Of a stretch of 64,000 nucleotides of DNA, positions 10,921-50,506 are shown in pieces. Each line of letters opens with the position of its first letter. The stretch's first letter is position 1. Both the position numbers and the translations under genes were made by a program. Under the pieces are notes generated by a model. That model was given only the letters and a program-made list of their open reading frames with translations, had not been told where the DNA came from and did no database searches. The DNA lies in NCBI RefSeq assembly GCF_002775205.1, contig NC_036456.1:18317463-18381462 (forward strand), written 5' to 3'. Origin of the DNA: Xiphophorus maculatus. Lineage: Eukaryota > Chordata > Actinopteri > Cyprinodontiformes > Poeciliidae.

Positions 10921-13024
10921 TCAGTAGCGGGATTTGCGGCACATGTCGCAACGACACGTCTTTGCCGTCAGGATCTCGATTTCGTCGTAGTGCCGACCTC
11001 GCGGGCAGTCCAGGCGAACTTTGACCTGGAAAAAACAGAATATCCACATGCTGTGAACAAAACAGTTTGGGGACCAAACCCAAACTGTTTTGGGTCCCCA
11101 AACAGTTTACAATGATGCAAGCCACTGTAAACTGGCCAGAATATCAATACAAATTATATTTTAATATCATTTGTATTTAATATTAGAATAAATATTAAAT
11201 ACAAATGACCTGTGAAGGTTCGTTAATGACCAAAAACAGCTGAAAACAGCAAAGTGTTCTTTGCTTCATAAGAATACTATGAAAAGATGAGCATTCTCTG
11301 TACAAGCTGAAGCTAACAAATGTGTTGATGGCTACTTATTATTTGCTCCATCTACTTCTGAAGTCAGAACTCAAAACCTAAAACCCAGTTTAAGTTCAAA
11401 CCGTTCCAAATTTGAAAACCAGTGGGATTGGGTAGTTGATAAATAAGGCTGATTTCGGGTGTTTTCATACCTTACAGTCCAGTAGACTTGGTTTGAACTT
11501 ATTACCTGAAATTTGTCTCTTAAATACTTAAGGCAAAGTAATTCAATTTCAATTCATTTCATTTTATGTATATAGTGTCAATTTAAAACATGTCATTGGG
11601 AGGCGTTCATCATTTTACATTTTAAAGATATTAAAAAAGTATTCATAGGTCATCATTAATATCTTCAAGGCAAAAACAGCACAAACAATTTTTTTTGCTG
11701 CACAAATGTAGCTGAGTCGTTTGACACCAAATTTGTTTGACGTAGTAAATATGAGCGTGTTGTTGGTTGACCTCTGATGACCTCTGGAAACTTTTTTATG
11801 AATATTTTTTAATCATAGCGGCACAAATGAACATTTTTACTGCACAAACGTAGCACAAACATTTGACGCCGTTTTTGTTAAACTTGGATAATGTGGGGGG
11901 GCTAGTTGACCTTTTGACCTCTAAGCTTTCATTAATATCTTCAAAGCAAAAACAGCACAAACAAATTTTTTGCAGCACTAACATAGTTGAGTTCACTGAC
12001 ATCAATTTAGTCAGATTTGTAGAAGGTAGGGGTTGGTTGACCTTTCACGACCTCTGGAAACATTTAATATTTTTAAAATGATAGCGGTACAAAAGAACAT
12101 TTTTGCTGCACAAACGTAGCACAAATGTTTGACAATTTTGTTAGACTTGAAGAAGGTACTTCTAAGGAACTTTATGATATTTCTTTTACTTTAAACTTGG
12201 AAATCTTTTAAATTGAAAACCTAAATATTTATCCTTTAACCAATCACAAAATTTAGGATAATTTTTTATTTTGTTTGTTTCTCTGTCAGGAGACAACACC
12301 CTGAGAAAGTCCAGTTCCCTTTGTAGTATACTTTTAAAATTTGTATCTTGATGGTGGTGCCCTCAAAACTTGGTATTTACAGGTCCAAAAAGTTCAAGAA
12401 CCACTGATCTAGACTGAGAAAACAAAGAAGACCGCACCTTGGCGTCCTTGCTGATAGTGCAGCAGCGTGAAGCAGAGGTGATGTTGTGTGTGAAGTTTGA
12501 GGCCACCAGAACCGAGTATCGGGACGGGAAAGCGCTGGACTCACAGTAGCCCACGCAGGCGTACACCAGATGGGTCCCTTTGCAAGTGCCGCGACGGTCG
12601 CTGCGGATCGTCACGTTGATGGCTGGAAGGAAGGAGGAACAGCATTAACTAGACTCAGCAGATCAACTTACAGAGGTTTGAGATTTTCCTTACTGTACTA
12701 GTTCCTAAAACTAGCTTTTTTATTTTTACATGTATTTATTTTGGAAATAGAAGATATACTTGTTAGTTTAACAAGTTGTGAAGATTTACAACCTCTACCT
12801 GAACTGAATTACTCTTTTTTTCCCCCCCCCCCCAACTAAGTTAACTTCTTTTTTTTTTTGCCAGACGTTGTAGTGCAAAGTTATTTGCTACTTTCTCCGT
12901 ATTGAAACTCACGGTATAGGTGGCATCCTGGGGTTTGTCTCTCTTTGCTCCATCCGAGAGGAGAGAAGAGCATCAGCAGCGACATCAGGGCCAGCAGGCA
13001 GATATGTGAGATGCTCTGCAACAT
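10921..13024 (-). CDS. gpha2: Glycoprotein hormone alpha-2 (thyrostimulin alpha subunit)
   Basis: This secreted cystine-knot subunit pairs with GPHB5 to make thyrostimulin, a TSH-receptor ligand. Coding exons on the minus strand: 13024-12913, 12622-12438 and 11025-10921. Splicing gives 402 nt, 133 residues (human 129). The order is signal peptide (MLQSISHICLLALMSLLM...), GCHLYPINVTIRSDRRGTCK, YACVGYCESSAFPSRYSVLV, HNITSASRCCTIS, and the ending TCRCDMCRKSRY, which corresponds to human TCQCDMCRLSRY by memory. All ten family cysteines are present, and both N-glycosylation sequons (NVT, NIT) are kept. Splice phases are 1 and 0. The start is the first ATG, sitting directly after a CTGTCCAG acceptor, which implies an upstream non-coding exon. 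gphb5 lies 6.7 kb upstream on the same strand. Confidence 0.96.
11060..11207. repeat. cluster of three perfect inverted repeats
   Basis: Arms: AAACAGTTTGGGGACC at 11060-11075 with its complement at 11093-11108 (16 bp); CAGTTTAC at 11103-11110 with GTAAACTG at 11127-11134 (8 bp); CATTTGTATTTAATATT at 11168-11184 with its complement at 11191-11207 (17 bp). The first two overlap and so compete. The cluster begins 32 bases upstream of the gpha2 exon 3 acceptor in the transcript direction. Confidence 0.85.
11650..12165. repeat. 276 bp-period tandem duplication in gpha2 intron
   Basis: ATTAATATCTTCAAGGCAAA at 11655 recurs as ATTAATATCTTCAAAGCAAA at 11931. Matching order of motifs follows in each unit: CAGCACAAAC, GGTTGACCT, GACCTCTGGAAAC, TAGCGG, CACAAACGTAGCACAAA. 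About two degenerate copies. Within a unit, a half-length repeat is also suggested by the recurring GCACAAA motifs. Confidence 0.7.
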
Positions 13025-14609: not shown

Positions 14610-15095
14610 GAACAGGGTTCCTAAAAGGTCTTTAATGTATCTATAGTTAAGGCCTCGAAATGTCTTAAATTAAATTAAAAATGTGAGTTGGCCTTAAATA
14701 CATTAATCACAGGCTGGACTGCTTGATCTTGTATACGTTTTTGGGGGGTTTTTCCTCGCAAGACTTTACTGTCATAAAGTTTGAGTTGTGTGCAGACATC
14801 TTATTGCATTCTGTGACTTGAAGCGGTTGATGCTACCGCTAGCTTGCTAGCTTTTTGACATCTATAGTGAGTAAATCCAAATTTTTGGCCAGTTTTGAGG
14901 ATGAAGTTAATTTATATCACTGCCTCATGTCTGTTGCCATTCCATACAAGGCCAGCTGCATTCTGTACCCCCCAAATACTTTTAGTTTTGGCACTATCTG
15001 GATTAGGAGCCTCCAACTATCCCCCATATTGACATTAAAAATGTCTTAGAAAGTCTTAAATTTGACTTTGTGAAACTTGCAAAAACGCTGCTGGA
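14610..15095. repeat. interspersed fish repeat (GTCTTAAAT-type)
   Basis: The ends carry GTTCCTAAAAGGTCTTTAAT and GTCTTAAATTTGACTTTGTG AAACTTGC, motifs I associate with a widespread teleost repeat. The family is not named with confidence. Confidence 0.4.
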
Positions 15096-15179
15096 TAGAA
15101 TGATCAATTTTGCACAGAAAAACAGCAGACGGTGCTCTTCAAAATATAAATAATTATGTATAACCTTTAATTAACAGTT

Positions 15180-16930: not shown

Positions 16931-17012
16931 CTGGACAGGTGAGAGTTCTTGTTTTCAGGTGAGTTGTCTAGCAGGTGTGGGAATGTCTGTCCTGAGCCCC
17001 ATGCAGGAATAT
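16931..17012 (-). other. predicted non-coding first exon of gpha2
   Basis: On the minus strand a strong 5' splice site, TCCAG/GTAAGAACCAG, ends at 16931. The preceding ~80 bases start about 30 bases downstream of a TATAAG motif. The only suitable downstream acceptor before gpha2 coding exon 1 is CTGTCCAG, directly before its ATG. The exon is inferred from splice and TATA signals; the 5' end is approximate. Confidence 0.45.
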
Positions 17013-17038
17013 AAGTAACACAGGTAGAAGGGACGCCA

Positions 17039-18370: not shown

Positions 18371-18423
18371 CACATACACCATGTGTTGTAACACATGTTG
18401 TCACTGACACATGAGGGTGTCAT

Positions 18424-19699: not shown

Positions 19700-21067
19700 T
19701 CAGAAGGTCTGACACTCTGTGTCCTCCATGGAGCAGAAGGTGCAGTGGCATTGCAGAGCCATTGGGTAGTGGTAGAGAGGGGAGACGTTGGGCAGGCAGC
19801 CCGGCAGCCGGGCCGTCATGTGTCGGATGCGGCTGTAGGTGCAGACACGGTGGTGTCGGTGGATGTACGGGGGCTCGATTATCGGTCTCTGCACAAACAC
19901 AAAACACATCAAAGGGAGCTGCAAACTGGTTGTTCTTACCTATTTTATGAAATATACCTGCCATAATTTTACAGGAATATAGTAAGGTAATTTTATTTAT
20001 ATAGCACATTTTCAGCAACAAGGTAGTTCAAAGTGCTTTACATGAATTAGAAGAAAATACAAACAAAACAACAAAACCAAAAGAAAGACAAAAAGGAAAA
20101 GGACAAAGCTAAACATTGGTTCCCCATGGTTAATAAAAATAAGTAATCCATAATTTATAAACTAATTGGGGGTTTCTCTGGATCCCCTAGAGAAAAAGGA
20201 TCCTTTCTCTCGGGGAGAAAGGATTAGTAAATGCCTCTCTGAATAAGAGAGAGGCATTTACTAAGTGTTGGTTCTCCATGTTTGGTAAGATTAGTGAGGT
20301 ATAAAATTAAATGTTTGTTAACAATAAAACTAAATGTTGGTTCTAGTTGTTCTGGGTTGAGTTCTAGATTACATAAAGCTAAATGTTGGTTTTCCATTTA
20401 GCTTTCGGGGTTGCTAAGTAAAATAGTGACGGGACTAAATATAAATGCAACAGGTCCAATTCAGTTGTTGCAGTGCAGTTTAGAACAGTTGAAATTGAAT
20501 TGAAAAACTGAAATTGAAATCCAGTACTATAGAGTTTATTTCATTTATACACAATAGCAAGTTTTAGTAAATTGTACAATTATTAGTTGTAGAAAATCTC
20601 TCACAGGTCTAATGAAGCAAACAGAATATTTGATTATTATTTAATTTGTTGAATTAATTCAAAGTCATTAATTTGACAAAATTAATGAATATAAATAAAG
20701 TTATCAATATTTATTAATTGATTCTGGTGAAATATAACATGAAAACACTTATTTTAAATCATATCTTCACATTTTAGACTTTTATTCTTTCATAAATTAA
20801 ATATTTTTTACATATGTTCTCTTTTATAAATAAACAGGATTTAGAAAGTTCTGGTCGTTGTTTTACCTCCCAGGTATGACAGCGCCCCCAGCAGGCCTCC
20901 GTGGTGATGTGCAGCCCCTTACAGCCTGGCTTCTGGGCCACAAAGGAGAACTCGCGCACTGCGCAGCCCCGGAAACTCTGGAGCGGCGTTGTCATGGAGA
21001 CGCACACCACGGTTGCCGCGGCAACAAGGAGGAGGAGTACGGAGAGGGAAAGGAGACGCAGCGGCAT
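19700..21067 (-). CDS. gphb5: Glycoprotein hormone beta-5 (thyrostimulin beta subunit)
   Basis: This secreted cystine-knot subunit dimerises with GPHA2 to form thyrostimulin. Coding exons: 21067-20867 and 19888-19700. Together 390 nt, 129 residues (human 130), joined in phase 0. The first exon holds a signal peptide (MPLRLLSLSVLLLLVAAA...), then RGCAVREFSFVAQKPGCKGL and EACWGRCHTWE. The second starts RPIIEPPYIHRHHRVCTYS and ends CHCTFCSMEDTECQTF. All ten family cysteines are present, and as usual for beta-5 there is no seat-belt extension. Where human has the sequon YNET after HHRVC, this gene has YSRI; the only sequon is NVS (followed by Pro) in PGCLPNVSP. The ATG sits one base after a CATACCCAG acceptor, so a non-coding exon is expected upstream. 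The gene is on the same strand as gpha2 and upstream of it. Confidence 0.95.
19981..20420 (+). repeat. retroelement-tail-like repeat
   Basis: TTTTATTTATATAGCACATT TTC and AGTTCAAAGTGCTTTACATG are recurrent in fish retroelement 3' ends as I recall. They are followed by A-rich sequence and imperfect repeats of AAATGTTGGTTCTCCATG. Exact family and right border unknown. Confidence 0.45.
20226..20262. repeat. perfect 15 bp inverted repeat
   Basis: AGTAAATGCCTCTCT (20226-20240) pairs exactly with AGAGAGGCATTTACT (20248-20262) across a 7-base loop. A second smaller hairpin, CCTTTCTC / GAGAAAGG, lies just to its left near 20202-20224. Confidence 0.8.
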
Positions 21068-30345: not shown

Positions 30346-33300
30346 CTAGGTGGCGCTCTCCCCGGCTCCGGTGGAGGCGCCGCTGGGTTTGGGCTCGGGC
30401 TGGTCGGACTGGGCCATCTGCGTAGACGAGGGGCTCAGCGGGTCTCCTCTCTCGCCCCGCTCCTGGAGGTTGCGTTGGTTCCTGGCGGCCTCCGTTAGCA
30501 TCTGCATGCGCCGCTCCTGGTACTCCTCCAGGCCTCGCCAGAGGTCGGCACGCTCCCGCTCCCGCTTCATCTCCCTGGCCGGGCGCAGAGACAGAAACCA
30601 GCAAGGTTAAAAGAGAAGAGAAGGAGTTTATTTAGGGAAACTCATTGAAGAGCCATGAATTACTACTGTAGAGTTACACAAGTCAGTAAAGTCTTTTAAA
30701 GCCAGTTTATTTAAAAAAAATAATCCTTCATTCCACTCCTTTTTCCATTTCTTTCTTCCTTGTGTCCTTCCTTCTTTTTTCCTTCCCTTCCTTCCCTCCT
30801 TCTGTACTAATGCCATTTCTTCCTTTGTTCTTTCTTTCCTTCTTTCCATCCTTCCTTCCCTTTTTCTTTCCTTCTTTTTCCTTCCTTCGTTCTGTCCTCC
30901 CTTCTTTACTTCCTTCTTTCTGTCCTTCCTGTCTTGTGTCCCACTGCCTTTTCCTTCTGTTTTTTCTTCCTTCCTTCTCTTTTTCCTTTCCTGCTTCCTT
31001 CCTTCCTCCCATCCTTCCTTGTGTCCTACTGCCATGTTTCCTTCATTACTTCCTTCCTTCCTTCTTTTCTCTAATTCTGATTTCTCTATTTAGTATTTAG
31101 TAGAAATATCTGCCATAAAATCTAAGTAATCTTCAATATTTTCATATTCTAAAATTATTAACCAGAAAAGTCGAACATGTAAAAGTTGGACATTTTTAAT
31201 CAGTTGTGGAAATAAAATGAATTTATGAGTTTCTTTGGAAGAGCTGCTTCACCCTTCCTTCAAAGTCGGAGAAGAACTAGTTCCTCCTCCTAGGAATAAA
31301 AATGACTTAGTTATTTCCCTGAACTAATTCTTATCTCCAGTTTGAAACTATTAAATAAAAGGATTAGGATTTTGTTACCGGCTGACCTTAACCACACTAA
31401 CCTCTGGATTACCGTCTCACTGGACAGATAATGGAACAAGATCTGATTTAAAAATTACTCCTGTTTCGTTCTGTCCCTGAACACAACACGGCGGTGAGTC
31501 ATACTCACTTCTGTTTCTCCACTTTGTAGGAGGCAGTGAGGTCATCAAACAGTTTGCTGTTCATCTCCATGAAGGTCTTCAGCACGTTGTAGATCAGAGA
31601 CACGATGGTTCTGGAGGAGAACAGGAACACTTTGAAAATATTTACGTCTTAGGACAAAATGGACAAATTTGGATGAATCAAGATGATGGGATTAAAATGC
31701 AAATAGAGACTGACACCCCCAACCAACATTTAATAACTTTTGCAGCATAAAAATATGATGAATGAATGTGATCAGTTCATCTCTCAGCAGTAAGTTTAAC
31801 TTTTTAACAGTTCACTAATTCACTTTTATTCTGTGTCAACTGAACTTACATGACACAAAAGTTACACTGACAACTCACAAAGGATGAATACGCTGTTTAA
31901 TTTGAAAAATAACCTCCTGTAATATGTAAATTACCAACAGACTGAGTTCAGTAGCCACAGATTTTTTTTGTGTTACAAAAGTCTGGGTTTGTTTAAATAA
32001 ACTTTAAGTTGACCAACATGCTAAATACCCTCAAACTTTGATTTTTAACTCAAAATACAATTTATTCTTACTGAAATTATTCTTTACCTATAGAAGAGGA
32101 TTGGGGCCACTGGGGAAAAAAAATAAATTTTCAACATTTTTATATTTCTAAAAAAAATAAGAATTTTGGGAAGTCAAAATTCTGAGATTAAGAAAAAATA
32201 ATCTGAATTCTAACATTAGAGCCACAATTCTACAATGGTGTATTTAGAACATTATAGATAGAAAACATATGGAGTAAATTTCTGCCAATTTTTTTTTTTT
32301 TACTTTTTAAGATGTTTTCTAGAACATTTCTGAGATTCATCTCAAAATTTCCGAGTTTTCTGGTGGAAATTTACTCCTCTAATTTTTTTATATTTGGATC
32401 AATAGACGTGAATAGAGTTTGCATCAATAAATGCAAATACAATTCAAACTTTATTCTCAGGATATTGAAAAAGTCACAATTGTTTTGGTTTTTTTTAACT
32501 GAAAAAAAAAATATCTGAATTCTGAGTTTAAAGTTCAAATTCTGAGATTAAACTTCATAAGAATTCTGAGACAAAAACCTAAAAATTCCGAAAAGAAAAT
32601 CAGAATTTTAAGAAAAAAGTCTGAACTTAGAATCTGACATTAAAGTTAAAATTCTGAGATTAAAGCAAAGTTAGAATCTTAAAATTTTGTCCTTTTTTAT
32701 CGGAGTTCCAAGGGAAAAAAAAGTTATTTTTTTTAGTGACCCTTATTCTCATTTGTAATATACCCTTTATATTTGACGACAGATTTGACGTTAATTTGTC
32801 TCCTTTTGGCCATAAATCTACAAGCAGAACTCCAGAAAAGCGGTAAATGAAGTTGTGCTGTGTGTCTGTGTGGCCGTACTGGTTCCAGTGCTCCTTGGAG
32901 ACTCTGTAGAGCGTGGCGAACACCAGCGGCAGGATGACTTGACAGTTCTCCTCTATCAGGCTGAGGATGTACTCGTTGTTCCAGAAGTAAAGAGCGCGCT
33001 CCGCTACCTGAAACACACAGAGCAGCTTCTAGAGTAAATCTCTAGATCGTACGATTACTGTAGTTTCCTAAGCTCCCCAGAAACATTTTTTTGCTGTGTG
33101 TATGTGATTTCTGTGGGTGTTTTATTTTGTTTCTCCGGTTTGCTGCTCGTTTATCACCTGAAAGTGAGGGCTGGAGATACAGGCTGCTATCTGCTTAAAG
33201 AGAGGCTCCTGGATCCGGATGAACTGCGACGGCTCTATCACGTCCAGTATCTCCTCAATCTCCCCCAGGAACATCACCTAAAATCACCGACATGTTTTTA

Positions 33301-34971
33301 TGTTACACATACGGAGGAGGAGGCCATTTAAAAGATAAATCAGCTGCTGTCTTCTTTACCTCTTTCTGAGTGCAGGTTTTGGGCCAGTACTTGAGCAACC
33401 CCCTGATGATCTGCAGAACAAAAAGAGTGCAAATGATATATCTGCATTCATAACACTCTGGTTATCAAATTAGATATACTGTATGTATCTTTAAAAGTTA
33501 ATAATTTAGCTTTCCAGACATTCATTTTAGTTGGTATGCAGGCACAAACATTAACAGATACATTTTATTATCAATAATGATCCTGAGAGTAGGGAATAAT
33601 GTGATCACATGACTACATTTTAGGCCCCACGGGGCTAAAATATCTTGTTTTCCATACATGTTACACTTTTCTAATGTCTCACTCTGAATTAAATACTTGA
33701 TTTGTGTTTATTGAGTTGTTGTCTTACGTATTCGGTCACTGTAGCGTCTTTCTCCATGAACTGCACCACACAGTACGCTAGCTGCAACAACAGAAGCACT
33801 CCGGTTTGAAATAAAGAACAGATAATATATCCGGTCATAGATTATTGATGAGAAATAAGGAAGATTCATTTTAGTGATGATTCTGATGAAGGTTTCAGTC
33901 TTTCCAAATAAATAATGAAAAATGTGTCATGTGGAGTCCCACAAGCATTGGTCCTAGGTGCCTGATTTTTGTGGTTCATCAAGGTTGTTAAAATTTGCAT
34001 TGATGCAAATTTGCAAAACTGATGGGAATGTCTTAGTACGCACTGAAAAGTGTTTCTTTTCTCTGCATTAAACCAGAACATTAAACCAGAATGTGGGGCT
34101 CACACCTGCTTTGGCACGTTTCCTCGCAAGTTACTGATGCTAGATGTCTGCAGAATGCTTGTCACCAGCATAACAGGGGGCAGACGAGGGGTTTGTGTTC
34201 AGTGTCACCCAGTGTAGAGTCATTTTACTATCTGCTGGGCTTATTTAAGTGAAAGCAGAAGAAATAAACACAAACTCCTATATCTGAATCGATCACGCCC
34301 AGACTCTGAAGCCTGTCATGGTTGGTTTTTGAGGCTGCAACTTTTGAAAAATTTGCAGTATCAAAGTTGGACTTTTTTTTCTATTCCTTTCCCTTTGCTA
34401 AATGCAGTGCCACACATTCTCTTTGGCAACATGACAAATACATTTGGCATTTGAACTGTAGTCTGAAAAACTCTCGATCTCAGAGCAACCAGACTATATA
34501 TACTGCAAAAACACAAACTCTTACCACGTATTTTTGTCTCATTTGTAGCGCAAATGTCTCAGTGCACTTAAAATAAGACAAAACTAACTTTTAACTAATA
34601 TTTCAGCAATATATGGATATACTGTATATTGATTAAAAGGTACTTGTTCCACTGGCAGATTATTTCACTTAAGACATTTTTCCCACGTTATAAGTGAAAT
34701 AATCTGCCAGTGAAACTAGAACTTTTTCAATCATTACTAAGGAATTATTGACTTAAAACAATAATCTCCTGAATCTACTGAAAAGTTACTTTTAAATAGT
34801 TTTTTTTCTTACACATAGTTCTCATGTGATGTCACACGTGCAAGGTTTGTAACTCACAGCCATCTTGATACATCCGCAACTAATTGTCATGACAGTTGCT
34901 ATGGAGTTGCTATGACAACAGTAAAAAAGCCACAAGCTTAGAACTAGCTCTCGCCTCGTTCCTGTATAACT

Positions 34972-35007
<36 letters not shown>

Positions 35008-38000
35008 TATATATTATTCTCCTTACAGTCGTCAGAGAGACGAGGCTCTTATCCCTCAGGAACCGCTGAAGGTCGGAACGACGGGTTTTCCGACCCTGTT
35101 TGAGTGAGTAGGACTACCTCAGCGCTCGTCTGCGCTCACTTACGCAGAGGCCAGTCTCTATTATTCAGTGTGTGTGTGTGTGTTTTGCGGTTGCCCCCTC
35201 CACCCAGGCCGGTTGCTGTGGTGAGTGGGCGCATGTTTACTTCGGAACGAGTGATGTCACACACATAAAGTCCCTTCAGGCCAAATGTTAGGCAGAGTTT
35301 AGACCTCCATTCTCTCTCCTCCTTATTGTGTTGCAGGTTCAATCAAACCATTTTTGTATTTTTTTTTTTTTTTTTTGTTCGTTTGGGTTACATTTGGGTT
35401 GTGATTACTGCAGACTGAGTTTGTGGTGTCAGGTTGAGATGATGTTCTTCTTCAACGTTACAGAGGTACAGTTAAGGACGGAGAGGGATGTAAAAAGACT
35501 CGGGTGGAAACAGATATGTTAAGCTTAAGCACAAAGAAAAGCAGAAAGAAAAAGATGAAACTAAATCCTGCTGCTGAGAGGTGAAACTATTACAAGCATT
35601 AGAGAGGCATTAGAGGAACTGGTTGGGGTAAATATGTTGGAGTCTGTTGTCAGGTTGGGCTTGGTGGGGGAAGGAGTCATTGTTTGGCTACGGATTATGA
35701 CCTTTCAGTCTTTTACAGGTGCTAAAGTGAAGATTTCACCCTATTAAGCTCGCATACAGTAGAAATATTTCTGAAACGATCCGGTGTTCACTTCTAAAGA
35801 ATCCGTTTCTAAGAAGAAGGAGGCAAGAGTGGCTCAATGTTCTGTAAAGTGCGGCGTTATGAAAAAGCATTTCCTCAAAGATTTCTTCTTTTTTCACACT
35901 TTAATGTTTTAGATAAACTAATTTCACATAAGAAAAAAAAACACACAGAGTAAATTAAAAAAGGAGTTTAAAATGAAGGTTTTATTTATTAAGGGACAAA
36001 AGCACCACTAGCTAAACAGTTAGTTGCGTTAACCCTGAAGCACTAGTCCTAACTTTAGCTACACTAATGCTAGAAGCTAATGCTAATGCTCTAAATTCAG
36101 CCATATTGATACCCACCATGTGTCAATGACAACATGTGTAACGGGTACAGAAGAAATGTAACTTGCTGCACTCCTTCGCAGGTGGACAACGTAAGGAGAG
36201 GAAACTGAACTGCTGCGTAAACGGCCTTCACCCCCTTCAAAATAAGAGCATGGATATAAACGTCTACTTGAAGAATCCTTAACAGTCCATGAGCAAAACT
36301 TCAGTGCAGTGATCAAACTTTATTTAAGTGAAAGTTTATAAAACAGCAAAGTAAACTAGCGCTTTAGACTTTATCCGTAAAAATTAACTGTGCTAACTTT
36401 TTTCAAAGTCAGCAAAAATACCAATTCTCTCCAGGTTAAACCGACAAATAACATCCTTTTCACCGGCCACATCTAGGCTGATTTATGCCAGGAATATAGA
36501 AATAGCTTAAGCAGAACCTGTCCGACAACATGAAGTAGGCTAAAAGATCTCAAAATCCAAAACTCCCTGCCCAGATCTGAAGAAATTCAGTAATAGATAA
36601 CACACAAACTCTTTGATATGTCTGGAAATGGTTACAAAGCTGTTGGAAAGGGGAAAATATGTTAAGGTTTTCAACATATAGGTTTTTTTTAGTTTAGGTT
36701 GTTTTTGAAGCTTTTGTTCTGAACTCTGGCGCACAAGAGAGGAATATATACTTCACACAGTTAAGAAAACTGTAAAGTTATTTACATTTTCTGCAGGGTT
36801 GTCATATTTTGACATATCCACCCAGAAGTGGGTCAGTTGTGCTCCCGCGTCCCGCCTGGCCCCATCAAAGCCAGTTGTTTGTGTGAGTGAGTTAATAATG
36901 CATGTGTGTGAAAAGCGGGGGGAGCGGAGGAATGTAGGGCACGGCGGTGCAGAGACCCAGAATGCACAAACACAGGAGCCGCCGACGTGCCGGTGCGCCG
37001 GTGCAGAACAAACTGTACCCTCTGTAGCAGCAAATAATGTGGGACGCAAATAAAATGCACAAACAGACAGTCTGCCATCTGTGTCATCAAATATTATGAC
37101 TGCCTAATCACAAACACACACACACACACACACACCAAAAGGTGAGGCGTCTCGATTATCTGTGGCGCAATCCTGCCTCCTAGTGGAAAACCTGACACAT
37201 TGCAGGAGAGGTTCAGGCCGCTGAATTGAAAGCTGATTCTCTTACTTTGCTCTTTTGTTTGTTTATACCCTTAGCTGATATATGGGGTGTTTTTAGATAT
37301 TGCTCATTGTTGTGTGTATAACTGCAACATTTTCTCTGGAGTTTTGTAAAGCAGCACTTAGATTATTACAAGAATAGTGTAGGAGCAGATTATGAATGAA
37401 CATATATTTGTTACATGGTTCATCAGCACACTTTATGATAGGAACCTTTCTTGGTGATGGCAACTGTTGGTGAAACAGTTTTTTGACTTTACAGAGGCCA
37501 AGCCAACGCTTTAACACCAGGGTGGAGTTGACATGCTGGATACCAGGTGCTGTCAACAGGTGTTTGGTGGATGGAGTCGTAAAAAGTAGGATTTTTGGCT
37601 TCGATGCTCAGTGATGAGCTTTAATTCTGACTTTAATTCAGCTGACAGCGCATCCACTCTACCCCGGTGTACCACCCTGGTGGCTTAAAGCATCGGCTTG
37701 GCCTCTGCAAATACTGTTCAATTCGTTCATATTGTGTAAAATCACAACTACAATGTATTTTATTGGGATAGACCAACATAAAGTATCGAAATAAAGCAAA
37801 ACGTGGTTTTAGAATATAAGTTTTCTTCCAGGTTTGCCTCTATTCGTCGTTGATGCTGCCAGTGCTGTGTTGTAATGTTATCATGGTGTGTTCAGAGTGA
37901 CGCATAGTGTTAGTTTGTTTTGTTTGTAGCCCAAATTGAGCACCTTCTTCTGTGTGGTTCTCTGTCCGCTTCACAGATCCTAGCAAACTGCAAACATGAC

Positions 38001-41000
38001 TTCTGACTTGCTGAATACACAACTAATAGCTCTCATGTGTGGATCTTTTCCTGATGACTCTTTATTGGTCTCTCTGAATTGACCTTGTGTTTTTGTGTGT
38101 GCGGTTGTTTGGTGGCCTGTTGAGGTTGCACCCTCATTTACCGCTGTAAGGACAAGCAGGTGTAGCCGACGGCTGGATGTTGTCGTGCTGAGGTTAATCA
38201 CTGACCTGTGCATGGAAGATGGAGAGGGATTTTGCTGTATGTAGCGGGATGAGGACCCGCACCAGGAACTGCTTGTGTTCAGCTTTCAGCGGCAGCGCGA
38301 AGCCATTAATGATGCTAAAACACACAAAAAACAAGAATTATTATTTCTCTTATGTTCGCCTCATTTTTTTCTCACATTATTTTCTGTTCACATGGAAGGA
38401 AATAAGATATAATTGACAGTTTCTTCTTTCTATCAAAGAAAGATTGAGATAATTGGAACAACACTGATTTGATGAAGGCATATTTTGATTTCCAAATTTC
38501 ACAGAAACAGTTTAGAAAGATTTTTGTTTTGCTTAGTTAAGAGCCAGAGACCAAATTTCTACACAAACTAAAGATAAAATGTGGCATCCCTACTGACATT
38601 TGCAGTTATTCTAACAGATTTGCTCATTTTAAATAGCATCCTTATTGTTAACTGTTTTATAACAACGTTTATAGATGAATTTAAAATGTCATTTTTTACA
38701 GCTACAGCTCATGTTAGCTGTTTATTTTTACTTAACTGAAAAGCAATTTAGTCTGTATTTAACTGTTGAACATTTAACTTTTCTTTTAATTTTGTGACTC
38801 ATATAGGTTTTTAGTCGACAAAAAAAATAGGTAAATCAACTGTAAATAATCTGAAGTAGTTTTTGGGACAGTCCTCAGTTATGAGGATGAGCCATGATCT
38901 CGTGTTGCAGCATTTTTCAGTTCATTACCTCTGAAATGCTGCTGCATTGTGAATGGATTAACGATGTAATTCTCAGCAGTGACGTTGTAAAAACTGATAA
39001 AACATCGCCTACACTGCAAAAACACAAACGCTTACCAAGTATATTTAGTCTAGTTTCTTGTGCAAATATCCTACTACACTTGAAATAAGGCAAAACTAAC
39101 TTACAAGTAACTGTCAGCAAGCTGCGGGGGATTGCTTTAAGTCAACGATGTCTTAATACTGATGAAAAAGTTCTAGTTATAAGTGAAATGATTTTAACTT
39201 ATAATATGGGAAACATGTCTTGTTCCACTGGCAGATTATTTCAGTCCTAACTGGTACGTTTCCATCAATATTAGTGAATTATTTACCTGTTACATGCTGA
39301 AAGGTTACTTGTAAGTTAGTTTCTCTTATTTGAAGTGCACTAATATATTTGTGCTATAAACTGGACCAAAACACTTGTTAAGATTTAGTTTTTGCAGTGT
39401 AATTCTCCTCCAACATCCCTGTTTGTTGGGTTAATGCGTCGTAGTTTCTGACTGAACTCCAGCTCTGAGCAGCAGGAGAGTGGGAACCAAACTTGGAAAG
39501 TGTGACAGCCTCTGAGCCGTTTGGGTGTTTGTAAAGATGATTTATGTTTGTCTACCTGTCTGCTGGACTTCCTCTCTAGCTGCGTCTCAGTCTGCTTCAT
39601 GCTGCTGCCGCTCTGATGTGAATCCTGCCTTCCTCTCATCTTTTTTTCTGAATGCTTATCTGTCTTCTTCCTCTCTCTTTCTTTTGTTTTGCCTCCTCTC
39701 TCGCCCGCCGATTCCTCCCCCTATCTGTGTGTGGGAGGAGCTATAAATACCTCTGTTACCAACAACATGAATACAAGCCTCTCTCTCTCCTGCTCTTCTT
39801 CTTCTTCCCCCACCTCTGACTCACTCTTCGCTCAGTCATCCTCTTCTACAAGCATCCCTCTTCTCTCACCTTGGACTCATCCTCATCTTCCTCCTTCTCT
39901 TCTCTCCTCACAACTCACAATTCAATTTAAAGGTCAGTTTTTTGATCACTGAATCATCGCCTGTAAGGGCGGTTGTGATTTGTATTTGAAAACAGGCTCA
40001 TGTATTTTTAAAAGATGTCTTAAGCCTCTTAAATTATTTTAAACTACCAAGCAATGTGTGCCTAATAACCAATCTCAATGCTCGTAAATAGTTTTTTGTT
40101 TGTTTTCAATTTGTTTGGTATAACAGCTTTGATGTGATTGAGGTATTGACCTCAGTAAATATACTTACTAATTGTAGTTATTCATTTTAACATGGTCAAT
40201 TAAAGGAAAATTAACAAATATTATAAAAAAGATGTATTTTTTTTACATTTGCAGCTTGAATAAATCTATCGGCATACTTGTACATTTATATTTACAGCTC
40301 AATAAGTGTCCTGGTTAACATCGTTTCTGGCTCACATGCAATTTAAATTTATACTACCCAGCATCAAAGTAAAAGCAAGCGGACAACATTTTTATTAGAG
40401 CTAAATTGTTTTCTTTTTTTAAGGTTTTATCGAGTAGTCATAAATTGCAGCTAAGCTTTCTGCTGTAGAGACAAGGCCAAACAGTCTAAGGTTGGAGAAT
40501 GGAAGAGTCAAGCTAACAGGTTCAGATTTAATGGACCTTACCAAGCTCCGCCCACAACCGACCCACGTGACCGCAAGTCTCACAAACAAAGGCTCGCAGC
40601 GCCATGTTTCTATGTAAACATGACTGATTAGTGCATCATTTCTACCGGATTTTCACAATATATCAGCTACTACAACGGACAGAGGAACTAACAAGTTCAT
40701 GTCATCATCTGGGAGGAGGTTACTGGTTTCTCAGTCACAAGCTGGTTGCAAACCTGAGGCCAGCAGGTGTCAGTCAGTTATGTTAGATCTGAAATTTGGT
40801 TTGATGACGTCAATATGAGAAGCTACAGACTAATAGGAGGAACCAAAGAGCTCTGTAAAGGTAAAGACAAATCTTCTTAAGTTGGGATATAATTAATTTA
40901 ATTTCACATAATCATCGCGGTAGAAGCCATTTGTTTGTTAAAATTTTATGAAATATATATGTTCTATTTGATGTTTGTTGTGAATGACATAAACTCACAA

Positions 41001-44000
41001 AGGAACGAGGTAATTAGTCCAACGTTTAGAAACTACAGCGGCTGTAATGCACCACAGCAAAGGTAAACAAAGGTAAAATAACCCGAACAGGTGATCAACT
41101 CAAAACCACTCATACCTTTTTACTCTCTCTCTCTTTGTAGTTTAAGCACACCTGTTACCATGGCAACCGCCTGCGTTAAAAACATAACATTCAGTCTGTT
41201 ACGATATCAAGTTTCCAGGCTTGATATTTATTTCTCGACTATTAATCAGCGCTTCCCTGAACACAGCGATGGTTGATTGACTAGCTGTACTTGGTGCTAA
41301 CGTGGCTAACATGAGTAACAGTTTAGTCCAAAGCTTTTTCTGCTAAAATAAAATCTTTAGTGTATGTCAGATACAGTACATGTTGCATATTGATCTGTTT
41401 AGCTAACGTAAGACTGTGTAGCAGACAGGCTTCAAGGTGTAGAAGTTGTATCAGTTCTGCCATTATGCTGTACTTAGCTAACGGGAAGCTAACGGTGTGT
41501 TTGTGAGACGGCCACGCACATGACCACGTAGAATCAGCCAATGAAAAGCGGCCCCTCTGGTAAGGTCCATATAGTGCAACACTGACAGTGTATTGATTCT
41601 GAGTTGCAACATTTTTGTATTGCTTTACTTTTATTTTAGATCCTTAGTCCATCTGGAATTATGTCATATATTTCTACATAAATGATCATCTGATTTAAAC
41701 ATTACAATGGTTTAAAAAGGCTCATAAATTATTTATTGCATGGTTCTCAATGTTGTGGTAACAGATCCAGTATCTGTCATTCTTGACGCACTCTTGGAAA
41801 CGAAAAAGACTCATAAAAATCCGTGAATTTAACTACAAACGATTTATCAAGAACAATGCAAAAACAACAAAAAATTAAGATCCAAAGTCTTTTATTACTA
41901 TATCTTTGTCTTCTTTCAGACAAAACATGGAAGACATTGTCAAAAACTGTATTGATCTGTTCTTCTGCAATCTTTCTGCTACTCAACAGGAAGTAGGCCA
42001 TTCAAAATAAAAGAAAAACTGAATTCCACAATAAAGTTAACCTACAGTGATATTAACCTCACTTTCTGAGAATGACAAAAATTAAAGGCAAAAAGCATTG
42101 AGCAAAATATAGAATCTAAATATGACTTATTTTTCGCTCAAATGTTTTTGACATTAGAGTTTTTTTGTGTTGTAGAAATTAGTTTTAAAACTAATTGTTA
42201 GTTTCAGCTTCCTTATAACATTTACTGCAGGTAAAATATCAACTTATTTTAACAACAGCTTACTTAAAAAATCTCAAACTACACCTTTAACTAATTACCA
42301 TGTTTCCGCAAATGACTCAAATTATTTTCAGATTGTAGTGGAGTTTTAGTTTGTGTTTTTTTTTGTTTGTTTGTTTTTTTGGTCTTTGCTCAGATGTAGG
42401 GCCGTTCTTTTCAGAAATGCTAAAAATCTCAAACCCAACATTTAGCTGTTTGTGTTTTTCAGAAAGGTCAAAGGTAGAAAACAAACCAGACAGCAACACC
42501 ATGATCCTATTATTCCCTCGTCTTCCTCCCTCTCTTTATTCATCTACATCTAATTGGTTTGTGTGTGTGAGGAAATGCGACTTGTTTATCAGTTTGGCTT
42601 CATCTCGGTCTTGCTCATTTTGTTTCCTTAGAGACAATTTTAAGATGTTACACAACCACATGACTCACAACATTTTGTTGTGGATGTTTCTCACTTCCTG
42701 TCCCTATCTAAATTAATTTCTCAGTAAAATATCAGAAGATAATCAGCTAAAGAACAGCTGCCACAGTGGCTGAAACTAAAACGTCCACAGCTCAATCATG
42801 AACACAAACATCTGGTTGTTGATGATGCGTTTTCTTGTTTTAGGGCATGTTTGGGTGTTTCTGCTCATACAAACCTGCCCAGGATTTCCAGCAGCTCCGC
42901 TACTCCGTTGAAGTGCTCAGTTTCATAAATGAACCTAGATATCAAAAAAAGGGAGAAACTGTCACAACAAAATAATGAGGAGGATGAATAATTAACTTAA
43001 TTTAAGCTTCATTGATTAATTTAGTGTCATTAACCCTTCAAGACCCAGTTTCTTTTATTCTACCATATCTGTATTTTAAACCAAAAAATGTACAAATGTT
43101 GAATTTTGATCTGTTTTTTTGACACAAACATATTGTTTAGTTTTTTTAATTTTATTTAGTAGGAAATTTGCAAACAAATTCCTCCCACAGTGTCACAAAA
43201 TACCACAATTTAGAAAACTTTGGTTGAGCAAAATCTCTGAATATGACTCAGTGTGTCAGATTAACACAAAGGAAAGTTTAAAAAAAAAAGTCTTTATAAA
43301 TGTTTCGGTTGATCATTAAAATGTCTAGAACATGACATTTTTATGCAACACTTGTGCAAAATGCTAAATATTTTTATGTTATATTTAATAAACGTTCAAA
43401 AAACCACAGAAGAGGTTGAACTGTTTTGTTTTTCTTTCGTGTTTCTCTATGTCTGGGTTTGCAGGGTTAAAACATTTCAGAATCAGTTAACTGGTGTAAT
43501 TATTACATACTTCAGGAAGATTTTTTTTTCCTGGTCACAATGATTTAATTCTCAGGAGAAAACGAAGGTTTCATGCATAACATCCTGCTGATTAGTCAGT
43601 TTTCTTTTTAATAAAACACGGGACCGACTGCAGCCTTTGTTTTTCTATTCTTAGAAACATCCAAACTAAAAGTAGCCTCCAAGTTTTTCCTTTCTGTAAT
43701 AACTCTGCATTATTTAGCTGACAGTATTTAGTGTTTTTTCAGAACATTAGCCTGTTTTATATAAGGAAACTGCTGCCATTTATTATAAAATAATAATTTT
43801 TAACGTAAATTGAGGCTTAATTTTTATTTTTTAAATCCAGGTCGTACCTGAGGAAGATGTTGTTGATCTGTTTGCGGATGTACGCTCGGAGGCCCAGTAA
43901 TTTTCCATAGACGCGGTGCAGGATGGTCTTCAGGTACTCCCTCTCTCTGGGGTCCTCGCTGTCGAACAGCTCCAGGAGCTGCAAACACACGTAACGTAAT

Positions 44001-47000
44001 TACAGCCACTAAATGTGCAGCACTGCAACTTCACTGACTGCAATAATTCTACAAACGCTCTGCACTTATCTCTAGCAGCGACACTGCAGGAATATTATTG
44101 CTTTTTGCTGCACTGTGAGATTTCAACGACAAACAACAAGACTTAAAATACTACCATTTAGAAATACTTAGGATATTTTAAAGTATTTATTTATGCTAAA
44201 GAATTTACAACCCTTAAAGTTTTTAAAACTTTGTTACATTAGACACATTGAACTGTTGTGTATTTAATTGAGATTTCATGACAAAACAATTAAAAGTAGT
44301 GAGAGGTTTTTAAGTAGAAAGAATTAGCTTCTGCTAAATACCATACTGGTGTAGCACTTTAGGACTAGTTTCCGCTAATATACTGTGTTAGTGTAGCACT
44401 TTTGTATTAGCTTCTGCTAATATACTGCATTGATATAGTACTTTAGCACTAGTTTCTGCTAAAATATTGTGTTAGTGCAGCACTTTACCATTAGCTTCTG
44501 TTAAATACTGTATTTGTGCAACGTTTTAGCACTAGCTTCTGCTGATATACTATGATAGTGTAGCTCTTTAGCATTAGCTTCTGCTAAATACTGTATTGGT
44601 GTAGCGTTTTAGCACTAACTTTTGCTCATATGTTGTGTTAGTGTAGAGCATTAGCTTCAGCTAATATACCGTGTTGGTTTAGTTCTTTGGCATTAAGCAG
44701 AGCTAATGTTTAGATTAGTGCTTTAGGGTTAGCATAGCTGACCTTTTAGCTATCGGTGTCCACAACTGGCTTAATGGTTCATAAAACATTATTAGCATGA
44801 TCTGCAAAATCCCAGTAAAACACTTTGAAGTTTGTGGTTGTAACATGATGCCAGGGATGCAAATACTTTGGCTAGGCACTGAAAAAGGATCCTGTGAATC
44901 TGGATTAGACGAGGATGGGAGGGGATTACCTGCAGGACAAACTTCTGGTCGATGTAGCGTTTAGCCATGGATGGCTGGAAGTCCGGACTCTCCAGGAATC
45001 TCAGGAAAAACTCGTACACCAGCTGGGGAAGAAGGAATATGAATGAGCTTCTCATTATCTAGAAATGCTTTGACATTTTATAGTTATTTATATTAATCCA
45101 TGACAGAGAGTCCAATCTTCAGAATTATTTTCTCATAAGAAGTTAACAGATTATGAAAGACAAAATATGACAAAATATATGGAACATCCTAAAATTCTCT
45201 AATTTATTTCTAAGTATATAAAGAGATGGTTTCTGATCTGAAATATAATCCTATGTTTTAAATTATGGCTGATTAAAGTCAACCTTACTTCAGCTCTAGA
45301 GGATCCATTTCTCAGGCAATTAATCAATTTGACATAAAGTGCATTTGATGTCAGGGATCGTTTACTTTATGAACGACAAACAACATCCAGCACGTATGTT
45401 TTGATGCTCTGCTGCTAATTTTACTTTGTGACACTAAAATCTGTGGATATAAACTGAAAAAAGTCAGGATATTTTGCAGATGAACTTTGTTTTTAGGACT
45501 AAGGTATATATAAAATTCCTGCAGCAGCGAGAACATGGCGTACCTGCAGATGTGGCCATGAGGCTTCGAGAGTCGGCTCATCTTCCTCAGGGTCAAACTC
45601 TGGATTCTCGCTGGGAGGAAGCGTGCGGAAGATGTTTACTGAGATCTGGAAAAAAGAAAACATGGGAGGGAAGCAGAAATGAGAAAATCTGACTTTCATA
45701 GCATTTAGCATTTTAGGAGAATTTGACAGAGAAATCTAAAACATTTGGTTGTGGTTTAAAGACTTGATGTAGTCTGTGTCAAAATTAAGCATCCTGATTA
45801 GATAAATAAATATTTTATACATGATATGTCTCTGTGTTGCCCTGCGACAGACTGGCGACCTGTCCAGGGTGAACCCCGCCTCGCGCCCGGAACGTAGCTG
45901 GAGAGAGGCACCGGCAACCCTCCCGACCCCATTAGGGACAAAGGGTGAACAGAAAATGGATGGATGGATGGATGTCGCAGGGGGGCTGCACAGTGGCGCT
46001 GTTGGTGGCACTGTTGCCTTGCAGCAAGAAGGTCCTGAGTTCGATTCCCGGGCCGGGATCTTTCTGCATGTTCTCCCTGTGCATGCGTGAGTTCAAAGTC
46101 CAAAACATGACTGTTAGGTTAATTGGTCTCTCTAAATTCTGCCTAGGTGTGAGTGTGTGTGCTTGGTTGTTTGTCCTGTCTGTCTCTGTGCTGGCGACCT
46201 GTCCAGGGTGACCCCGCCTCTCGCCTGGAACGTTAGCTGCAGATAGACACCAGCACCTCCCGACTCCACTAGGAACATGCTTTTAGAAAATGGATGGATG
46301 GATGGATGATATGTTGCAAAGATATACAGTATATCATAATATCAGTGTGTGCAGTATACATGCATGTTTTTAAAAATGTGCCTGAATCTTTTTTAAAGCT
46401 GCATTTCTGACATACAGGGCAGTAGGTGACATCCTGGACTGCAGTGTCTTTGTTAATATGATTATTTTTGGACATCTTATTCTAACCAACAATAATAAAA
46501 TAGAACATGTTATTGCCATTAGACATCAGGTTTGTTGATGTGCATCATGGTCAAACATTCCTACAATGATCTTATCTTTCAAAATGCAATGTTTTAGTTT
46601 GTTCTGATCCATTTCGACTAATCTACAGTGTTTTTACTTTGAAAACAGACGTTTCTCCAAACAGGCACACCCACTCCTGCAGCTCTCCTGGATTTTCATC
46701 ACTTATTAATATTTTGGTCTGTTGCTCCAAACAGTTGAGTGATATTTGTGAAGACTTTTAGCCAGAAACGATCGTTTCTCCTCGCCGATGCCTTTCGTTA
46801 TCGTCCGGAAAAAATGCAGCTTTGAGCTGAGATGTTCAACTTCACCTCAGAAAAATTTAAATGTCGCCTGTTTATCTTTAGCCAAAACATTTATTTATTA
46901 CATTTTTATATGTTAAAAAATAAATATTGAATATTAATTAAATAAACATTAAGATTAAGTCATTAAACTAAAAACGGCCTAGGTTGCAAAGGAGGAAAGC

Positions 47001-50000
47001 GTTGACATTTTTTCTCTAATAACTAGTTTATCAAGTGAATTTGATTATTAGGACCAGATTTCTTCGCGGTAAGAAGCAAATGTTTTCATATTGTTCCCTA
47101 ATTTGGAGAAATACAGAGTTCAAACCGTATTAGTTTAGTTTTAACAATGATTTTAGGCAAATCAATGTATTTATTCCCTGGATAATTACAGGAATACATT
47201 GATTTAATTAAATCATTGAAGAAAAATGCTCCATATTTTATCTTTGGTGTCACTCTGGACCGAACAGATGGGCTGAATGGGCAGCAGTGCACACGCTCTG
47301 TCAGACGAAGAAGCTGTTGCATTGCAGGTAAGAATAAAAATCTATCTTCAGCCCCGTTTTCAGTTTCCAAGCAACTCCAGCTGGTGTTGGTCATCTCTAA
47401 TGCTGATACCAGCCTGTGTTCAAGGAAAAACTGATAAGTCATGCAACGACTGTTCACTAAGTCATCATTAATTCACCGGCCAGCTTAAACTGCTCATCTA
47501 AAGGCACTATTTAGATCTCTGGTTTAAAAAGAGACTGTTTTTTTTTAATCGCATTATTTTTCTCTCTCTCTTTGTGGTTTTCTGGGTTTTTAACTGCTGA
47601 ATAAGGTAATATTCTGGAGATTGCTTCCACCACCATGCGTGATCTGATCTCTAATCTGATTGTTTTTTTCTTTTAAAGTATCATATAATCTGTTTTCTAT
47701 TAACCCTGAGGCTTCATTAGTTCATGCAGAGGAGGAGGTTTGACTCTAATATCTTCTAAACAGTAGAAGCATATTTTTAGGTTACTCTATGTTTTGTTGC
47801 ACTGCACCAAATTTTAAGGTGCTGCCCATCCCTGCAACTTTTGCAAAAGAGCAATTTCTTTTTTCATGTTGCTATTATTGAGACTTTTTTTAAGCAGAAA
47901 GCAGCACATTGGATCGTTCCTCCACTTTCCTTCCACCCCATTTTCACACCTCTGGGCAGAGCTGCTGGATGCCATAAGCAGCTATATATGTGCTGCAGGC
48001 TTTTCCTGCTCCTCTGGGATCTCTGCTGTCCACTCTCTGCAGCACGCTCCACTTTATCTCTCCCTTCCATCCCTCTTCTTGTCATCATGTGTGCAGACTT
48101 TTGCTTCCCTCTTTGTTAGCTCCTGCTCTCCTCTCCATTCTTACTCTTTATCAGTTCATCCAGATGCTCTCTTTTTTTTTTTTTTTTTTTGCCATGCAGG
48201 TTAGATTAGCGCGTGGCGGTCTTTTAAAATTTGTTCTCGATCCACTTTGGACCTATTTCCACATCAGCTGGACCGTTTAATATTCTGGCACCGCTGCAAA
48301 TTGTAGTTTTGGGAATGTTGGCATTCATTAATTGAACTGAAATTTGGGAATTTCTTCTTAAAGCTGCAGTAACTTTTATAAATAAACATTTCTTTACATA
48401 TTTGTTGAAACTGTCACCATGTCGTGACAGAAAAATGAGTTCCTCTGCATTCTCCCAGTGCTAACTAGAAACAGCCAATCAAAGCCAGGAGGCGGGTCTT
48501 AGTGCTGTCAATCACTCTCTGTGGCTGCGATGAGATTGATCTTTTGACAGGTTATCTCACAACATACCGACACGACATGGGGACACTTTTAGAAAATACC
48601 AAAAAATAAATATATATACAGTATATACTTTTATAAAAATTACATATTGGAGCTTTAAATAGTTAAATAAAAGTCTGCAATATTTTTATTCAATTAATCA
48701 ATTAATTGTCAGAATAACCAATAGAATAATCAATTACTAAAATAATCGTTAGTTGAGTTACGCATCTATAGTATAATTTTTAAAAACATAAATATGTGGT
48801 GCTGCTTATGCTTTACAAGCTTTAGAGAATGTTAACTTTGTGTGCAAGAAAATGTCTCTTCCTTAAACGGATAAGTGGAAAAAATTTCCTCCAAGACACA
48901 AAGGCAGGATGTTATCCTGAATTATGTCTCTCTTGATTATCTGACATGTCGGCTGCATGATAAAGATGATTTAGTTAAAACGTTGGACTGAATATTTCCA
49001 TAATCCTTACAAGAGCCTTTGTATTGTAATATTATCAGTTATTACAGTTTTGTCCTATTCAATACTGATACTAAAAGTGCTGTTTTGTTTTCTATTTATG
49101 GATAAGGACGGGCGGGGACAAGTTTAGAGGAACACTGAATTAAAAATTACAGCTCTGGAAAAAAATTAAGAGACCACTTAGAATGACCAGTTTCTGATTT
49201 TTCTTTTTATAGGTATATGTTTGAGTAAAATGAACATTGTTCTTTTTTTATTCTACGAACTACTGACAACATGTCTCTGAGATTCCATGTGAAAATTTAA
49301 TATTTATTTTCAAAACATTTGTTTTGAGAAATGGCTAAAATAACAAAAAGATGCTGTGCTTTCAGACCTCAAATAATGAAAAGAAAACAAGTTTATACTC
49401 ATTTAGAAACAACAATACTAGTGTTTTAACTCAGGAAGAGTTCAGGAATCAATATTTGGTGGAAAAACCAGGAGGTTTTCTATGATGTTCAGTTCAATGG
49501 GCTCTTAATTTTTTTTTCCAGAGCTCTGTGAAGCATCCAAACAACAATGAAAATGATTTTCATCACTGTAACTAAAGTCAAGAAACAAATCCAGTTACAG
49601 TTACAATGATTATCTTATTACGGTTATCTTACCATCATTATTATCATTAGTTTTCTCTTTCTCTGTTTTTTTACATTTGTTTATTGGTATATAACACAAA
49701 TTAAGAAGAATTTATAGGTGCACATTGGCAAGGAGTTGGTAAATATTCTAATGCTCTACGTCCAGTTGTCATGATAATTATTATTATGATCCGTAGAGTT
49801 TATTGTCTTGTTATGAGTTAGTTTGTAACCATTTTGTCTATGTAATATAATATATTTATTGGCTCTTTAGCCCCAGTATATTGAACAGGCACATGACTAT
49901 TATAACATGGTTTTATTTTAAAAAATTTGATAATTATTGAGTCAGTAAAATTGAGATAAAGGGTGGGATTAAATAAGTTTTCACTTCTTTCTGCTCCTTT

Positions 50001-50506
50001 TCAAAGATAAAATTAGTGGTAAACAAATAATGTTGTTCTTGGATATGTATGCACATGTTTTCTCTGTCCTACTGATCGCTTGTTTTCTTGTTTTTAAAAA
50101 CCTGTTCAAAATAAATACATAAAAAAAATGGAGCTAATAACACCTGCGCATAATTATGTTTATGACCCAAATGTTTTAAGTTTTGCTTTGTCTGTGTAGT
50201 CAAAACACAAAAGGGTTGAAAAGTTTAATAAATATATATTAAAAAAAACTACTAAATTTATCCCAACTCATTCAATCACTCCAACCTTTGACCTTCCTGC
50301 TAGTCTTACCATCTTTATGGCCTCTGGGTAGAGAGGCTCGATGAGGACTCCTCTACTAGTGGCCACGCTCTCCACCAGCTCGTTAAGCGCCGCACGTTTG
50401 ATCTCCTTTCCCTTCAGGTCGGCCACGCAGTCCAGGAAGTCAAACAGCACGCAGCACTGCTGCAGCTTCTTGCAGAACAGGTCGTGTAGCTCTGCCACCG
50501 GGGCGT
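30346..50506 (-). CDS. ppp2r5b: PP2A regulatory subunit B56-beta (PPP2R5B), 5' partial, coding exons 2-13
   Basis: B56 subunits bind the PP2A core enzyme and choose substrates, mainly through a groove that reads LxxIxE motifs. Coding exons on the minus strand: 50506-50310, 45645-45544, 45022-44930, 43978-43848, 42934-42875, 38314-38206, 33781-33728, 33410-33360, 33277-33158, 33007-32880, 31610-31509 and 30574-30346. They make 458 residues plus stop, and every phase fits. The HEAT-repeat core is recognisable: [97 protein letters not shown] and [12 protein letters not shown] point to the beta isoform rather than epsilon. The acidic C-terminal tail (about 50 residues after DLWRGLEE) differs from human. 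The N-terminal exon (about 65 residues in human) is absent, presumably beyond 64000. Confidence 0.96.
30575..31508 (-). other. ppp2r5b last intron, with TTCC tract
   Basis: GTGAGT donor at 31508, GGCCAG acceptor ending at 30575. About a third of it is the pyrimidine tract listed at 30737-31075. Nothing else is recognised. Confidence 0.9.
30737..31075. repeat. (TTCC)n polypyrimidine tract (GGAA on the gene strand)
   Basis: Degenerate CTTCCTTCC repeats with CTTTC and TGTCC variants over ~340 bases. The transcript strand is polypurine (GGAAGGAA), which explains the lysine/arginine/glutamate-rich ORFs on the minus strand here. These ORFs are composition artefacts, not genes. Confidence 0.95.
31611..32879 (-). 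other. ppp2r5b intron with TTCTGAGATTAAA repeats
   Basis: GTACGG donor at 32879, CTCCTCCAG acceptor ending at 31611. From about 32160 to 32690 the sequence is built from diverged AATTCTGAGATTAAA-type units. No gene is seen. Confidence 0.85.
32160..32690. repeat. degenerate TTCTGAGATTAAA tandem repeat
   Basis: Units such as AAATTCTGAGATTAAACTTC, GAATTCTGAGACAAAAACC and AAAATTCTGAGATTAAAGCA recur. It is low complexity and AT-rich. Confidence 0.65.
34502..34800. mobile_element. palindromic MITE, copy 1
   Basis: ACTGCAAAAACACAAACTCT TACC at the left, and a large internal inverted repeat around CCACTGGCAGATTATTTCAC and its complement AGTGAAATAATCTGCCAGTG. Same family as 39011-39400 and 59601-59860. 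The right terminus is eroded. Confidence 0.7.
34969..35009. repeat. compound (TA)n(GA)n(TA)n microsatellite
   Basis: TATATATATATATATATA is followed by AGAGAGAGAGAGAGAGAG and ATATATAT. Confidence 0.9.
37113..37135. repeat. (CA)n microsatellite
   Basis: About eleven CA units. Confidence 0.9.
39011..39400. mobile_element. palindromic MITE, copy 2 (complete)
   Basis: It starts ACACTGCAAAAACACAAACG and ends GATTTAGTTTTTGCAGTGT, so the termini are inverted. The two halves mirror each other: TAGTCTAGTTTCTTGTGCAA against TTGTGCTATAAACTGGAC; GACAAAAC/TTACAAGTAAC motifs appear on both sides. It is 390 bp with no ORF. This is the most complete of three copies. Confidence 0.8.
40531..41570. mobile_element. 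1 kb element with diverged terminal inverted repeats
   Basis: ATGGACCTTACCA at 40531 is mirrored by TGGTAAGGTCCAT ending at 41570. Further inward both ends share ACGTGACC/ACGTGGTCATG-like and CTCACAAACA motifs in inverted order, giving TIRs of roughly 80-90 bases. There is no transposase ORF, so it is non-autonomous. Superfamily unknown. Confidence 0.55.
42935..43847 (-). other. ppp2r5b intron (0.9 kb)
   Basis: GTACGA donor at 43847, GATATCTAG acceptor ending at 42935. AT-rich; nothing recognised. Confidence 0.85.
43979..44929 (-). other. ppp2r5b intron with minisatellite
   Basis: GTAATCC donor at 44929, GTTTGCAG acceptor ending at 43979. It is dominated by a minisatellite (44330-44720). 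The minisatellite is bracketed by diverged Tc1-type terminal sequences at about 44205-44300 and, inverted, 44800-44885. Confidence 0.85.
44330..44720 (+). repeat. minisatellite, ~43 bp unit, about 8 diverged copies
   Basis: Unit roughly TTAGCTTCTGCTAAATACTG plus TATTGGTGTAGCACTTTAGCA C. Starts of successive copies can be read near 44328, 44367, 44410, 44453, 44495, 44538, 44577 and 44620. Copies alternate between ...AAATACTGTATTGGTG and ...TATACTGTGTTAGTG forms, suggesting a higher-order two-unit repeat of about 85 bp. Confidence 0.8.
45023..45543 (-). other. ppp2r5b intron (0.5 kb)
   Basis: GTACGCC donor at 45543, CTTCCCCAG acceptor ending at 45023. No feature recognised. Confidence 0.85.
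45830..45975 (+). mobile_element. SINE 3' fragment with GGAT tail, copy 1 (5'-truncated)
   Basis: CTGCGACAGACTGGCGACCT GTCCAGGGTG leads to AAAATGGATGGATGGATGG. This is the 3' half of the element that follows immediately, lacking the tRNA-like head. Confidence 0.7.
45980..46315 (+). mobile_element. tRNA-like SINE with GGAT tail, copy 2
   Basis: The head has CACAGTGGCGCTGTTGGTGG (A-box-like) and GAGTTCGATTCCCGG, a good match to the tRNA B-box. The body ends in the same GGCGACCTGTCCAGGGTGAC and AAAATGGATGGATGGATGG as copy 1. Polymerase III origin is inferred from the B-box. It is not a functional tRNA gene. Confidence 0.7.
48358..48658 (+). mobile_element. TTAA-flanked MITE, copy 1
   Basis: TTAA at 48358-48361 and 48655-48658 bracket an element whose ends mirror each other: AGCTGCAGTAACTTTTATAA at the left, TTTATAAAAATTACATATTGG AGCT at the right. 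The interior carries CCAATCAAAGCCAGGAGGCG and CTGTCAATCACTCTCTGTG. No ORF. The duplicate is at 53450-53745. Confidence 0.7.
49149..49529. mobile_element. non-autonomous Tc1/mariner-like element
   Basis: ACAGCTCTGGAAAAAAATTAA GAG at 49149 is mirrored by CTCTTAATTTTTTTTTCCAG AGCTCTGT ending at 49529. The interior (GTATATGTTTGAGTAAAATG, AACTCAGGAAGAGTTCAGGA) matches a common fish repeat I recall. 381 bp, no transposase. Confidence 0.75.

Follow-up and report, generated by a model that had tools for sequence, protein, structure and literature searches.

The genes for the alpha-2 and beta-5 subunits are known to lie side by side in teleosts. The adjacency of gpa2 and gpb5a was described in 2011 (PMC3280201) and in 2019 with the coelacanth added (PMC6752823), and the teleost tandem was repeated in a 2021 review (PMC8522476). 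Both papers trace the gpa2/gpb5a pair back to a gpa-gpb locus of the ancestral chordate and date the split between gpb5a and gpb5b to the first vertebrate genome duplication (PMC3280201, PMC6752823). In the species compared, GpB5a was always found directly next to GpA2, whereas a different chromosome or scaffold carried GpB5b (PMC6752823); gpb5b was apparently kept too in most teleosts, in the environment of the tetrapod gpb5 (PMC3280201). GpB5a is reported to be retained in the coelacanth and teleosts, whereas chondrichthyes, tetrapods and the basal ray-finned fish have lost it; the zebrafish gene is described as a likely pseudogene (PMC6752823). The alpha and beta genes of the invertebrate gpa-gpb pair are likewise adjacent, at a single locus that predates the vertebrate genome duplications (PMC3280201).

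Gene order and neighbours of the pair

The window is the whole stretch of Xiphophorus maculatus DNA that was analysed, 64,000 nucleotides in length. The named genes along it are, in order, majin (+), gpha2 (-), gphb5 (-) and ppp2r5b (-), with the following features:

238..342, plus strand: majin, first matched stretch, starts with ATG (Pfam PF15077 positions 1-35)
1288..1371, plus strand: majin, second matched stretch (Pfam PF15077 positions 47-74)
10921..11025, minus strand: gpha2 coding exon 3 with stop (gene model; whole protein matches Pfam Hormone_6 and Cys_knot)
12438..12622, minus strand: gpha2 coding exon 2 (gene model, GT/AG sites)
12913..13024, minus strand: gpha2 coding exon 1, ATG and signal region (gene model)
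19700..19888, minus strand: gphb5 (most likely of gpb5a type) coding exon 2 with stop (gene model; Cys_knot on the whole protein; primer match)
20867..21067, minus strand: gphb5 (most likely of gpb5a type) coding exon 1, ATG and signal region (gene model)
30346..50506, minus strand: ppp2r5b, 12 coding exons (gene model; Pfam B56; grouping with a provisional human PPP2R5B sequence)

The locus very probably represents the GPA2 environment as it occurs in teleosts, in the order majin, gpha2, gphb5a, ppp2r5b, with the hormone genes as an ancestral pair and gpb5a as an ohnologue. The first-pass annotation had placed gpha2, gphb5 and ppp2r5b consecutively on one strand with majin flanking, and the gene models and Pfam matches bear this out; the span it gave for the cluster, 10921 to 50506, extends from the gpha2 stop as far as the beginning of the 5'-most ppp2r5b exon identified. 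By the gene models, the gap between the gpha2 ATG (13024) and the gphb5 stop (19700) measures about 6.7 kb, and that between the gphb5 ATG (21067) and the ppp2r5b stop (30346) about 9.3 kb. No gene was named between gpha2 and gphb5 (13025-19699) among open reading frames of at least 70 aa. Pfam scans of 50.5-64 kb gave no domain above the cut-off (50501-55402 in five of the six frames), and the window yielded no Rfam match to known RNAs and no tRNA (ARAGORN, bacterial code). Matches to Phage_zn_bind_2, CECR6_TMEM121, FTCD_C and three more Pfam families were all below the cut-off and were taken as chance.

The frame that holds both majin stretches carries the MAJIN domain (PF15077, 2.1e-19). 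At the other end of the cluster lies a PP2A B56 gene of 12 exons with a frame open throughout, encoding 457 aa (Pfam B56, 3.9e-182); neither a motif search for the N-terminal tail along the minus strand from 50000 to 64000 nor Pfam scans of 50501-64000 revealed its N-terminal exon or exons. The protein is 84.4% identical (340/403) to a provisional human PPP2R5B sequence. Identity to the PDB isoforms is 77.8% for alpha, 76.2% for epsilon, 72.0% for gamma and 71.6% for delta, the 14 PDB sequences listed for this comparison including no B chain. A tree joins the protein to this provisional human PPP2R5B with support 0.999; when that sequence is left out and the PDB isoforms stand alone, it joins alpha with support of only 0.727. 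With the provisional human sequence included, the gene groups with PPP2R5B rather than with A, C, D or E, as the first-pass annotation had named it. Its assignment to ppp2r5e was rejected on the lower identity to epsilon than to the provisional human B.

Human GPHA2, PPP2R5B and MAJIN lie together on 11q13. The neighbours of gpha2 are the same in both species, and no gphb5 is known at 11q13. In human, GPHA2 and PPP2R5B are on opposite strands, whereas here both genes are on one strand. Compared with the published teleost tandem (PMC3280201, PMC6752823, PMC8522476), the same two genes are adjacent, in the GPA2 environment and apart from gpb5b. Neither ppp2r5 nor majin appears in the main text of PMC6752823; the main text of PMC3280201 mentions no ppp2r gene and lacks C11orf85. 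The tandem arrangement and its history, which the first-pass annotation was unsure had been described, are already known from the publications of 2011 and 2019.

The two hormone genes

The gpha2 gene is intact, with three coding exons (10921-13024, minus strand), GT/AG at the internal splice sites and no internal stop. It encodes 133 aa with 11 cysteines, one of them in the signal region as judged by eye. The Pfam matches are modest, all narrowly above the cut-off (Hormone_6 2.9e-06, Cys_knot 8.2e-06, DAN 3.4e-05), and phmmer found no PDB sequence at E up to 0.01. Identity to a provisional human GPHA2 sequence is 62.5% (75/120). The sequons NVT at 40 and NIT at 84 align with the sites of that human sequence, and an extra one, NFT, is found at 80. 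The alpha cystine knot and the two conserved N-glycosylation sites of GPHA2/gpa2 are both present.

The gphb5 gene is also intact, with two coding exons (19700-21067, minus strand), GT/AG sites, no internal stop and a product of 129 aa; the zebrafish gpb5a, in contrast, is a likely pseudogene (PMC6752823). The Pfam Cys_knot match (2.5e-17) places the product among the cystine-knot glycoprotein hormone betas, and all eight PDB sequences found are LH-, FSH-, CG- or TSH-beta. Identity to a provisional human GPHB5 sequence is 55.5% (71/128). Against the same sequence the conserved N-glycosylation site is lost, residue 86 being Ser. A sequon NVS occurs in the exon at 19700-19888 (minus strand) at residue 101, 15 residues past the lost canonical site. 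The protein has 11 cysteines, one of them in the signal region (by eye), which leaves ten outside. In the alignment to FSH-beta, no Cys faces the third Cys of that hormone, and the sequence past the aligned stretch is free of Cys. The seat-belt latch of FSH-beta is formed by cysteines at these positions. Ten cysteines without the latch pair that the pituitary betas have mark the predicted protein as gpb5. Ten conserved cysteines are reported for gpb5 (PMC6752823).

Most probably the gene represents gpb5a, related to human GPHB5 as an ohnologue and not as its orthologue. The direct evidence for this is modest, and the identification draws mostly on the adjacency to gpha2, with one primer site and the loss of the sequon beside it. 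The gene lies directly beside gpha2, which is the position of gpb5a. Four tilapia primers for GpB5a and GpB5b were taken from PMC6752823, and one of the four matched: the last 22 coding bases of gphb5 correspond to the GpB5a reverse primer with one mismatch, a match given by none of 100 shuffles. The GpB5a forward primer, which lies over the fast-changing signal region, and both the reverse and forward primers of GpB5b had no match at up to three mismatches. Loss of the beta-5 sequon is reported for GpB5a other than that of tilapia and coelacanth (PMC6752823), so it does not exclude gpb5a here.

Origin of the tandem

The adjacency of the alpha-2 and beta-5 genes would be older than the genome duplications of vertebrates. 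Two beta-5 genes would have arisen in the first of these, of which gpb5a stayed beside the sole surviving gpha2 and persisted in teleosts and the coelacanth; gpb5b would sit in the environment of the tetrapod GPHB5, tetrapods having lost gpb5a. From the papers on most teleosts, we infer that gpb5b is probably present elsewhere in the X. maculatus genome. On this history the pair would be an ancestral tandem whose partner genes stayed together through two genome duplications in vertebrates. The locus suits the question why partner genes stay linked, and the present finding adds one more intact example of the published arrangement.

The first-pass annotation had proposed that one gphb5 lay beside gpha2 and a PPP2R5 gene, that the block was duplicated, and that one copy retained both hormone genes in this fish while each copy retained one of them in tetrapods. 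The ancestral adjacency and the block duplication agree with the published model (PMC3280201, PMC6752823), the adjacency being backed by most invertebrates and Ciona (PMC3280201), and in the window the adjacency is borne out, as are ppp2r5b and majin as neighbours. The scenario needs one correction, because two beta-5 ohnologues existed according to the literature: it overlooks gpb5b, which in teleosts is a second gpb5 gene on another chromosome (PMC3280201, PMC6752823), and its own test, the presence of a second intact gphb5 beside ppp2r5e, would go against it in most teleosts. On the published model, tetrapods did not simply divide a pair left whole in fish: they lost gpb5a, and their GPHB5 corresponds to gpb5b. 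As a history with a single gphb5, the proposal is highly improbable. It is extremely improbable that the tandem is not ancestral and that gphb5 was moved or copied next to gpha2 secondarily. Two observations might suggest this: chondrichthyans and basal ray-finned fish are reported to lack gpb5a, and a tree places the coelacanth GpB5a within the gpb5b clade (PMC6752823). Against it, the coelacanth gpb5a occupies the matching place, teleost gpb5a is the sister clade to all other gpb5 (PMC6752823), alpha/beta adjacency is usual in invertebrates (PMC3280201), and gphb5 here has an intron and is therefore no retrocopy.

Predicted hormone and repeats in the window

Because both hormone genes are intact, each presumably yields one secreted cystine-knot subunit, and the two could assemble into thyrostimulin, which binds the TSH receptor as a ligand. 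A working hormone from gpha2 and gphb5 is what we infer, tentatively. Recombinant GpA2 and GpB5 were reported to form a heterodimer when expressed together, and this heterodimer to activate human TSHR; views on its stability conflict (PMC6752823). PMC12691860 cites pituitary, ovary and skin as sites where GPA2 and GPB5 are expressed together, in passages that do not mention teleosts. Tilapia GpA2 could not be cloned and had no match in one tilapia pituitary RNA dataset, and GpB5a was suggested not to be translated or secreted outside tilapia and coelacanth (PMC6752823); both points count against a working hormone from the pair. It is rather unlikely that gpb5a is functional here, as its intact frame and a replacement sequon at residue 101 might indicate, and that the tandem makes a second, locally co-regulated thyrostimulin. 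If true, a working gpb5a would contradict the proposed lack, in most cases, of gpb5a translation or secretion.

The first-pass annotation added that the arrangement would allow the two subunit genes to share enhancers. Similar stretches, 69.5% identical, lie upstream of gpha2 (16188-16341) and, inverted, of gphb5 (23831-23959). As a candidate shared element they were set aside, being inverted and one of 12 dispersed pairs in the self-comparison of the window, and are most simply regarded as a putative dispersed repeat. A GT dinucleotide repeat of 67.5 copies (21894-22028) lies about 0.8 kb upstream of the gphb5 ATG. The translation of 53881-54081 (plus strand) resembles a broken Tc1/mariner transposase remnant; a five-frame Pfam scan of this stretch gave no match. 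The strongest of the 12 dispersed repeat pairs (48357-48770 and 53448-53854) is 74% identical over 436 columns. A tandem array with a period of about 42 bases and about 9 copies (44323-44695) lies between two ppp2r5b exons.
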